In this document: one piece after another, positions 46,885 to 60,302 of the stretch
Layout: each line of letters starts with the position of its first letter
Numbering within the stretch: the first letter of the stretch is position 1
Source: Flavobacterium tibetense
Lineage (GTDB): Bacteria > Bacteroidota > Bacteroidia > Flavobacteriales > Flavobacteriaceae
Direction: 5' to 3'
DNA length: 64,000 nt
Assembly (NCBI RefSeq): GCF_003293845.1
Contig: NZ_QLST01000009.1
Span: 1-64,000 of the forward strand
The notes under the pieces: generated by a model
What the model was told of the DNA's origin: nothing
What the model saw: the letters and a program-made list of their open reading frames with translations, nothing else
Database searches by the model: none
Position numbers and translations under genes: made by a program

Positions 46885-46888
46885 ATTA

Positions 46889-46918
46889 GTTTACAGTATT
46901 CAGTCTCAGTTTACAGTT
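46889..46918. repeat. ACTG-core degenerate repeat
   Basis: On the minus strand the sequence is ACTGTAA ACTGAG ACTGAAT ACTGTAA, units of six or seven bases sharing ACTG. It directly precedes the TTG start of the exonuclease fusion. The same kind of sequence recurs at 49.3, 52.05 and 60.27 kb. Confidence 0.55.
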
Positions 46919-46941
46919 AATTGGCACATTGACAAATTGCC

Positions 46942-47616
46942 TTATTGATAATTTCTCGTTCCAAAGATACTACTTCCAATTCGAACCATCGTACTTCCAC
47001 ATGAAATTGCCAGTTGATAATCGCCCGACATTCCCATTGAAAGAGTGTTCAGTTGGCAGTTTTCAGTGCTCAGTTGACTTACTTTGTCGAAAATGGATTT
47101 TAAATTTTGGAATTCTTTTTCGATTTGGTTTTGGTTTTCGGTGAACGTTGCCATTCCCATTAACCCTACAATTCGAATGTTTTTATAGTTTTCATTGTCA
47201 TTCTGAACTTGTTTCAGAATCTCGTCTAATTCTTGTTCATCTAATCCAAATTTACTTTCTTCTTCTGCAATATGAATTTGCAACAAACAAACAATCACAC
47301 GATTATTTTTAGCCGCTTGTTTATTGATTTCTTGTAATAATTTCAAACTATCCACTCCGTGAATTAAGCTTACAAACGGAGCAATGAGTTTCACTTTTCT
47401 AGATTGTAAATGCCCAATAAAATGCCATTGTATATCTTTTGGCATTTGCTCGTGTTTTTCCACTAATTCTTGGACATAATTTTCTCCAAAAATACGTTGC
47501 CCAGCATCATATGCTTCCATTAAATCCGCCACAGGTTTGGTTTTTGAAACCGCTACTAAGGTAACGTGAGGTGGAATTTGGGATTTTATTTGAGTTAGGT
47601 TATTTGAGATTGACAT
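46942..47616 (-). CDS. yggS: PLP-binding protein YggS/PROSC family, with repeat-derived loops
   Basis: A 224-residue single-domain alanine racemase-fold protein involved in pyridoxal phosphate homeostasis. Landmarks: VAVSKTKP with PLP Lys25, GENYVQEL, WHFIGHLQSRK, EESKFGL, GLMGMATF, and LSMGMSGDYQLAI followed by MVRIGSSIFG. Two loops are unusual. Residues 132-140 (EILKQVQND) are encoded by sequence with an 8-bp inverted repeat that resembles a common Bacteroidota intergenic repeat. Residues about 180-191 (SQLSTENCQLNT) are encoded by ACTG-core heptads like those in the neighbouring gaps. Both keep the frame and fall between conserved motifs, so the protein is probably functional. Confidence 0.92.
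   Translation of the reverse strand: MSISNNLTQIKSQIPPHVTLVAVSKTKPVADLMEAYDAGQRIFGENYVQELVEKHEQMPKDIQWHFIGHLQSRKVKLIAPFVSLIHGVDSLKLLQEINKQAAKNNRVIVCLLQIHIAEEESKFGLDEQELDEILKQVQNDNENYKNIRIVGLMGMATFTENQNQIEKEFQNLKSIFDKVSQLSTENCQLNTLSMGMSGDYQLAISCGSTMVRIGSSIFGTRNYQ
47045..47078 (-). repeat. ACTG-core heptad repeat inside yggS
   Basis: On the minus strand: ACTGAGC ACTGAAA ACTGCCA ACTGAAC ACT, four 7-base units in frame with yggS. The 12 bases ACTGAGCACTGA also occur in the intergenic copy at 60.27 kb. Confidence 0.6.
47200..47220. repeat. palindromic intergenic-type repeat inside yggS
   Basis: attctgaa (47200-47207) and ttcagaat (47213-47220) are perfect complements around cttgt. The sequence closely resembles a short palindromic repeat often found between genes in Flavobacteria (from memory), but here it codes for part of YggS. 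Confidence 0.55.
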
Positions 47617-52040: not shown

Positions 52041-52073
52041 TGTAAACTGCGACTGCGACTGAAAACTGGATAC
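52041..52073. repeat. ACTG-core degenerate repeat
   Basis: Reads ACTGCG ACTGCG ACTGAAA ACTGGAT ACT, between the convergent pcm and XRE regulator genes. It ends at the stop codon of the regulator. Confidence 0.6.
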
Positions 52074-52435
52074 TACTTCAAGCTCGTAAGTTTTTGTTTT
52101 AGAATTTCGAGTTCGTCTAAAATTTCGGTAATTTGATTTTCTTTTTTATCGTTACCAACTTCAATTCCTTTTTCTTGAAGAATTTCAGTAATGGCTTGAA
52201 TGGCAAACGAATTTAAGTCGAAATTTTTATCTAATTTCACTTTGTACCAAGCTACTAATAGCTTTTTTAAGTCTATTTTCAGAATTTGCGCTAAAGTTTG
52301 CACTTGTTTTTTGGTAGGAATACGAAAGCCATTTTCAAACTTACTAATCAAAGCTTGATCAATTTTGGAAAGTTCAGCCAATTTTCTAGTTGATAATTTT
52401 TGGTCTAAACGAGCTTGTTTTAATAAGTCTTTCAT
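52073..52435 (-). CDS. XRE-family helix-turn-helix regulator
   Basis: A 120-residue DNA-binding protein. The N-terminal HTH (about 1-60) is clear: LKQARLDQKLSTRKLAELSKIDQALISKFENGFRIPTKKQ in part, with the recognition helix near QALISKFENG. The rest is helical and ends in a short coiled coil (ITEILDELEILKQKLTSL). It lies 10 bp after smpB on the same strand. Its targets are unknown; no phage or toxin gene adjoins it. Confidence 0.85.
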   Translation of the reverse strand: MKDLLKQARLDQKLSTRKLAELSKIDQALISKFENGFRIPTKKQVQTLAQILKIDLKKLLVAWYKVKLDKNFDLNSFAIQAITEILQEKGIEVGNDKKENQITEILDELEILKQKLTSLK

Positions 52436-60261: not shown

Positions 60262-60293
60262 AACTGAATACTAAAAACTGAGCACTGAATACT
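60262..60293. repeat. ACTG-core degenerate repeat
   Basis: Reads ACTGAAT ACTAAAA ACTGAGC ACTGAAT ACT, seven-base units. It shares ACTGAGCACTGA with the copy inside yggS. It lies just before the guaB -7 box. Confidence 0.6.
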
Positions 60294-60302
60294 TTTTTTA
60301 AC

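Follow-up and report, generated by a model that had tools for sequence, protein, structure and literature searches.

Repeat DNA within the yggS gene of the window

The window analysed here is a stretch of 64,000 nucleotides of Flavobacterium tibetense (contig NZ_QLST01000009.1), in which positions 46942-47616 of the minus strand hold an intact open reading frame of 224 amino acids, yggS, of the pyridoxal phosphate homeostasis protein family. The protein matches the TIGR00044 profile with 223.9 bits for a cut-off of 106.25, as well as Pfam Ala_racemase_N, and its closest named relative among the best 80 of 583 loci belongs to Flavobacterium sp. UBA6195 (88% identical). It had been predicted that two loops of this protein are encoded by DNA of the intergenic repeat type. 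The presence of repeat DNA in yggS was confirmed at both segments, referred to here as sites A and B, and the reading frame and protein core are intact at both of them as originally claimed. According to a structure prediction with 33 sequences (mean pLDDT 92.9), site B links helix 162-179 to strand 187-193, whereas site A lies within helix 127-139 and is predicted to be the end of this helix and no loop, so that the description of both segments as loops suits site B but not site A.

Site B (positions 47043-47074, minus strand; residues about 181-192, the LSTENCQLNT region) consists of four ACTGNNN heptads followed by AACACT, the coding strand reading ACTGAGC ACTGAAA ACTGCCA ACTG AAC ACT, which corresponds to the four heptads announced for residues about 180-191. 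All four ACTG units are in phase, an arrangement with a probability of about 0.0004 given the protein and the sampled codon use. The overall self-agreement of the segment at a lag of 7 bases is modest (19 of 41, p 0.039), several relatives being far stronger, and the exact unit TAACTGA is not among its heptads, these being ACTGAGC, ACTGAAA, ACTGCCA and ACTGAAC. ACTGNNNACTGNNNACTG was found with at most one mismatch at 8 places in the window, as compared to 0.12 expected from shuffles. Heptads of the same kind were located in three nearby gaps instead of the four or more anticipated: the gap after yggS, directly ahead of the start of the next gene (46885-46941; 46.9 kb), a gap with one mismatch at 52058-52075 of the plus strand (52.06 kb) and a gap at 60263-60294 of the plus strand (60.27 kb). 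The latter has ACTGAGCACTGA, at 60277-60294, in common with site B, in agreement with the sequence sharing that had been reported for these two places.

As for the gap that follows yggS, ACTG or ACT heptads were seen right before the start of the next gene in many loci of the genus, and other low-complexity repeats, e.g. CAATATCAAAAATCAATTA or CAATGACAATGG, in L049, L091, L024 and others. This gap was considered as a local donor of site B and rejected, since by eye its heptads are independent of the loop type, for example in L012 and L042, which have ATTCACA loops.

Site A is a 23-mer, ATTCTGAAACAAGTTCAGAATGA, at positions 47198-47220 of the minus strand, coding ILKQVQN (residues about 133-139). 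It includes, at 47200-47220, the palindrome ATTCTGAAACAAGTTCAGAAT, that is the perfect 8-bp inverted repeat foreseen for residues 132-140, with a loop of 5 bases. Its probability given the protein is 0.03. The inverted repeat was rejected as evidence by itself, because stems of at least 8 with loops of 3-7 appear in 14 rows of the gene calls of the window, yggS among them (one of these rows, at a gene start, being printed without sequence). The unusual feature of the site A inverted repeat is its match to a dispersed element. The 21-mer palindrome had no match in 100 shuffles, and the 23-mer was found in 24 of 150 genomes of the genus. Within F. tibetense the unit is rare, a finding that had been named as unfavourable to the prediction: the own genome holds one further exact copy of the 23-mer, between genes, and the 15-base core, allowing one mismatch, recurs at 9 other places. 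Seven of these 9 are intergenic, and four of the seven form two pairs in opposite orientation, 38 bases apart, at C34:129.7 kb and C54:121.0 kb. The CGTC tag is missing from the site A unit, whose own-genome copies read TGTCATTCTG or TGTCGTTCTG.

Inspection of 10 loci with the 23-mer placed 7 between genes, one in yggS, one in a KdtA-like gene, where it again codes EILKQVQNDN, and one in the linker of a fused hydroxylase/oxidoreductase, a linker that carries other repeats in L321 and in L383 of the own genome. Among the 144 yggS genes scored at site A (of 146, two being left out), 14 have the KQVQ palindrome, a related second form is present in 16, and of the 114 that remain, 108 have a segment that falls short of the usual KQVQ one by two residues; the palindrome, a unit of 21-28 bases, adds at most 2 residues. 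In the nearest relative, L197, ACTG heptads are present at site B while site A reads ILNEIQQ without palindrome, in a segment equal in length to that of the window. Paired changes in the palindrome arms were rejected as evidence, all six outer pairs being kept in 4 of 14 genes only, and the second form makes a weak candidate for a dispersed element, since it was found elsewhere, with at most one mismatch, in 1 of 8 genomes. At site A of L254 and L264, an inner extra segment (TRGSAEQSEAN and SQGEAEQSNAN, respectively) adds about 10 residues. In the own genome, a nucleotide-sugar dehydrogenase gene (L281:1364-2665; contig C3, 17.1 kb) includes the peptide CHAELVSE, and the strand opposite its codons carries the site A core with one mismatch.

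Repeat classes at site B of yggS orthologues

Site B was compared in 146 distinct yggS genes, mostly of Flavobacterium, obtained by merging 90 genes from the 144 genomes with a match among 150 searched (mostly the top of the match list, some picked for a longer match) with a second sample of 80 named loci, the best 80 of 583; the gene calls of these samples are longest-ORF calls and not annotations. With motif classes drawn up after viewing the sequences, 88 of the 146 genes were assigned to a class, nine of the classes being heptads and two palindromes. The other 58 loops were left unclassified; many of these have TENC but no clean heptads, and one, L079, resembles a decayed GACGC palindrome. 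The heptad classes are ACTG (39 genes), ATTG (TTATCAATTGTCAATT; 9), ACTT (9), ATTC (ATTCACA; 6), ATCT (5, where the assignment of L231, resembling a decayed ACTG loop, is shaky), ACAACC (3) and TTATCC, ACTC and AAACC with one gene each; the palindromes are the GACGC palindrome in 11 genes and another one in 3.

As a neutral measure, a 7-base self-agreement score out of 41 was used with a threshold of at least 24. This threshold was reached by 48 of the 146 yggS sites as compared to 6 of 125,879 control coding windows (in 3 of 410 genes; windows counted without N runs, in view of a masked stretch in L166), and by 235 of 49,696 intergenic windows. The periodicity of site B exceeds what codon use provides, 32 of the 90 genus loops scoring above codon shuffles of their own protein at p<0.01, and the same holds for AroA at the four sites described below. 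On the other hand, codon-shuffled loops already reach 15.4 at lag 7 versus about 10-12 at other lags, and in a family search of 29 loci, 28 from other genera and one (L171) from the same genus, several YggS proteins share TENCxLxT with different codons (L170, L175, L180 and L190), so that the ACTG pattern follows in part from the protein. Among these 29 loci, 3 were above their codon shuffles at p<0.01, which makes the effect a weak one beyond the genus. The original prediction had regarded identical residues with divergent codons at both loops across the family as evidence against it, and at site B such residues do exist in other genera, e.g. KLNTENCKLNT and ELETENCKLET. Hence, the site B residues of the window may be older than the heptads, or may descend from a very old heptad. 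In a search of the class, 26 genes from outside the family were scored, one gene without the motif being left out, and a single one of the 26, L410, has a heptad site; its site B carries ACTCCCT heptads, meaning that the effect is not confined to the genus.

Between close relatives, differences were found at just these segments, with unrelated repeats, as had been expected if the prediction were right. L244 and L068, which are 95.0% identical outside the sites, have AACTTGA and ATTATCC heptads respectively; L015 has the palindrome and L012 ATTCACA heptads (93.6% identical), and L042 has ATTCACA and L016 ACTG heptads (93.4% identical). On a quick tree of the remaining gene (one short gene, with L241 left out), the 88 typed genes require at least 37 class changes, whereas 100 shuffles on the same tree gave a mean of 46.5 and a lowest value of 42, indicating that repeat types follow descent in part and yet turn over often. 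Where the two genes of a close pair differ in heptad class (38 pairs), the agreement is 0.53 in the loop versus 0.91 outside it, and neighbouring heptads of one array agree at 0.70; the units of an array are therefore more alike than counterparts in the sister gene. In the genomes G023, G067, G092 and G044, no ATTCACA triple was found outside yggS, so the donor is not always visible.

The heptads keep one phase relative to LSMGMS in 69 of the 74 heptad-class genes, the five ATCT genes being one base off with the pattern used. One length is shared by 65 of the 66 loops of six heptad classes and by 37 of the 58 unclassified loops. With ATTCACA heptads the loop is three residues shorter, and with the GACGC palindrome it ranges from 19 to 27 in the measure used here. 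Constant length was rejected as proof of a copying mechanism, since selection on length could yield the same result.

Repeats between genes and in AroA

Over 464 kb of the F. tibetense genome, lag 7 is favoured in the intergenic windows with a count of 410, the other lags (4-6 and 8-12) giving 5-163. For the coding windows of the same sequence, lag 7 (45) trails lags 6 (81) and 12 (51), which are multiples of three, and is the highest among the lags that are not. Three ACTG units occur at 11 places of this genome, of which 8 are intergenic, 2 are at gene edges and one is yggS. Copies between genes were found for all four units searched (ACTG, ATTCACA, the GACGC palindrome and the site A palindrome) and, with 8 of 11 ACTG triples and 7 of the 9 other site A core matches being intergenic, the units recur between genes in the way that had been proposed. 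The GTAG-ended form of the site B palindrome was found at 107, 37, 24, 12, 7 and 4 places in six relatives, at 2 places in the own genome and nowhere in G141 and G032, which have a different palindrome in yggS. Of 16 inspected loci with this form, 10 are intergenic, 4 are in open reading frames (2 of them yggS) and 2 were not located. Inspection of 20 loci with four ACTG units gave 18 intergenic places, yggS and a PabB-like gene, and 20 ATTCACA loci were distributed over 10 intergenic places, 4 yggS genes, 5 AroA genes and one DegT-like aminotransferase gene.

AroA, which was picked up via the repeat search and is hence no random gene, was studied in 49 distinct genes (30 best loci and 20 further ones, the own genome included, with one duplicate). 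A score of at least 24 was reached at its four sites in 28 of 49, 16 of 39, 22 of 47 and 19 of 31 genes, sites unrecognised by the patterns used being left out of this scoring, and codon shuffles were exceeded at p<0.01 in 26 of 49, 18 of 41, 19 of 47 and 19 of 48. The F. tibetense aroA (L353:298-1575; contig C54, 149.5-150.8 kb) has four heptad-like sites, three of them near-perfect, and is a stronger case than yggS: (AAAAGTC)x4, (ATCACCC)x4 and a second ATCACCC run score 31, 30 and 32 of 41, and none of 300 codon shuffles was as high at these three sites, the fourth site being weaker (25, p 0.03). Versions of AroA site 1 with heptads are about 5-6 residues longer. At site 2, L331, L341 and L344 have the palindrome-coded peptide HAELVSAS, and these three as well as two decayed look-alikes are all of the common length. 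A model predicted for AroA (mean pLDDT 86.7) puts each of the four sites either between strands and helices or at their edges. The own AroA also has an extra segment around LFKSGNSHPLEGCPKDG that is lacking in the other 20 aligned AroA. Together, YggS and AroA display recurrent in-frame replacement, at the DNA level, by repeats at fixed tolerant sites.

In the own genome, 10 of 425 gene calls reach a score of 24. Clear heptads were recognised by eye in a GSCFA-family gene (L375:14475-15428), in an unnamed gene of 225 amino acids with an ATCACCC run (L380:5945-6622) and in the linker of the fused oxidoreductase (L383:8555-10864). Weaker heptads were seen near the N-terminus of a 5-formyltetrahydrofolate cyclo-ligase (MTHFS; L391:13601-14170) as well as in a cystathionine beta-synthase-like call, at its start, which may lie upstream of the true one.

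Origin of the repeat-coded segments

The explanation that we favour and regard as fairly probable is that repeats of the type found in gaps have recurrently overwritten two tolerant segments of YggS, in frame and for the most part at constant length, through a supplying mechanism that we infer as follows. Palindromes would arrive from copies elsewhere by short-tract template switching or gene conversion, no local route being visible for them. For heptads, the proposed route is spreading inside a segment that already resembles heptads, through copying displaced by 7 bases; this would account for the constant length, the constant phase and the homogeneous arrays. Selection would retain those versions in which the frame, the length and the pattern of residues ahead of the strand LSMGMS are unchanged, and exchange of alleles between species may contribute too. 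In the window, site A would be a captured palindrome, and site B an old segment, its residues being found in other genera, whose DNA was drawn into the ACTG heptad class.

The original prediction is upheld by this explanation as regards repeat DNA at both sites, but not as regards the creation of new loops by in-frame insertion of mobile or expanding intergenic repeats. Insertion, which we consider unlikely, would agree with the different lengths (19-27) of the site B palindrome versions, the longer site 1 of heptad-bearing AroA and the further segment inside site A of L254 and L264. It is opposed by the single length of 65 of the 66 heptad loops, the common length of all five palindromic or decayed AroA site-2 peptides, the addition of two residues at most by the site A palindrome and the equal length of site A in L197 and the window; overwriting of an existing segment fits these data better. 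A further rival explanation would be homologous recombination of yggS swapping loop variants between species, each class having arisen once or a few times long ago. The incomplete clustering of typed genes on the tree (37 changes, as compared to 42 in the lowest of 100 shuffles) would be in line with such swapping, as would the ATTCACA loop shared by L012, L042 and L200, whose remaining gene is 91-93% identical, but perfect heptads of one class look alike anyway. As the main cause recombination appears quite unlikely, since it leaves unexplained why the alleles consist of repeats and why AroA shows the same effect.

The repeats could also be a by-product of the protein, TENCxLxT being a conserved motif whose codons resemble ACTG heptads by chance. 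The motif of other genera with other codons, the raised lag 7 of codon-shuffled loops and the p of 0.039 of the window gene on the general score all point this way, and for the window gene taken alone such a reading may hold. It is opposed by the four exact ACTG units, at p 0.0004 given the protein, and for the genus it is already contradicted by the 32 of 90 genes above their own codon shuffles, by the many relatives with other residues and other repeats at site B and by the same effect in AroA, and as a general account we judge it improbable. Finally, a function of the repeats in DNA or RNA, e.g. regulator binding, would explain why phase and site are fixed and why heptads also lie right before the start of the next gene; it is hardly credible given the variety of sequence at this one site, which ranges from quite dissimilar repeats and palindromes to plain sequence.

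Extending the favoured overwriting to the whole genome, it may tentatively be proposed, as a possibility that we hold rather doubtful, that misaligned copying by 7 bases operates throughout the genome in Flavobacterium and rewrites tolerant segments in place, from class to class, with length and phase kept. If so, AroA, YggS and others would carry fast-turning repeat-coded segments amounting to a mutational route of loop evolution. Such a route to protein loops was not seen in the literature searched, as far as its accessible portions go.

Three known systems were compared. The palindromic elements of Rickettsia, of about 150 bp, are integrated as a block and in frame within protein-coding genes (PMC10969869, available in part). 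They resemble the present case as dispersed palindromic DNA in frame inside metabolic genes, and differ from it in that the palindromes here are of 20-30 bp, codons are mostly replaced, many classes occur per site and tandem heptads predominate at site B (PMC10969869); no block of about 150 bp was found at site A, where the unit of 21-28 bases adds no more than 2 residues. The GTAG- and CGTC-tagged REPs are palindromes of 20-40 bp, mostly intergenic, some as dimers and some inside ORFs, and two Xanthomonas recB genes have different REPs at about the same site (PMC3733652, in the part available). The site A unit is likewise a short, mostly intergenic palindrome with dimers in opposite orientation, and in relatives the palindrome at site B is similar to the GTAG class; unlike the CGTC class, however, the own-genome site A unit shows TGTC, and unlike REPs the site B repeats are tandem heptads (PMC3733652). 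Direct repeats of the heptamer TAACTGA are intergenic in some Bacteroidetes, many just before start codons, where regulator binding was proposed, and those within ORFs are mostly in hypothetical proteins or at protein ends; a proposal cited there is that 7 bases may be the polymerase contact length, favouring slippage (PMC4679880, in the part available). The present heptads share with them the tandem 7-base unit, the mostly intergenic location and, in the gap after yggS, the position right before a gene start, but comprise many classes and lie inside conserved enzymes at fixed sites across species (PMC4679880). Swapping of heptad classes at fixed sites of conserved enzymes is not described in the available parts of PMC3733652, PMC10969869 and PMC4679880. 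Titles and abstract openings, with subscription journals mostly outside, yielded no heptads inside YggS or AroA and no loop replacement in Flavobacterium, and a search combining EPSP synthase, Flavobacterium and tandem repeat found no paper. Palindromes in genes and TAACTGA heptamers being already known, it is the recurrent heptad replacement inside housekeeping enzymes that looks new.

These observations imply that repeats of noncoding type repeatedly serve as coding sequence in conserved enzymes without breaking them. Since the sites are fixed and comparable across more than 100 species, the use of repeats as raw material for proteins, and its rate, become directly testable. They also call for caution, as loop residues may reflect the turnover of DNA repeats instead of selection on the protein.

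One and the same ACTGNNN array was further observed three times in the own genome (C20:2163-2194, C24:2759-2790 and C54:169979-170010), each time right before GGGGGATTAGCTCAGCTGG, which in our reading resembles a tRNA in the spacer of an rRNA operon.
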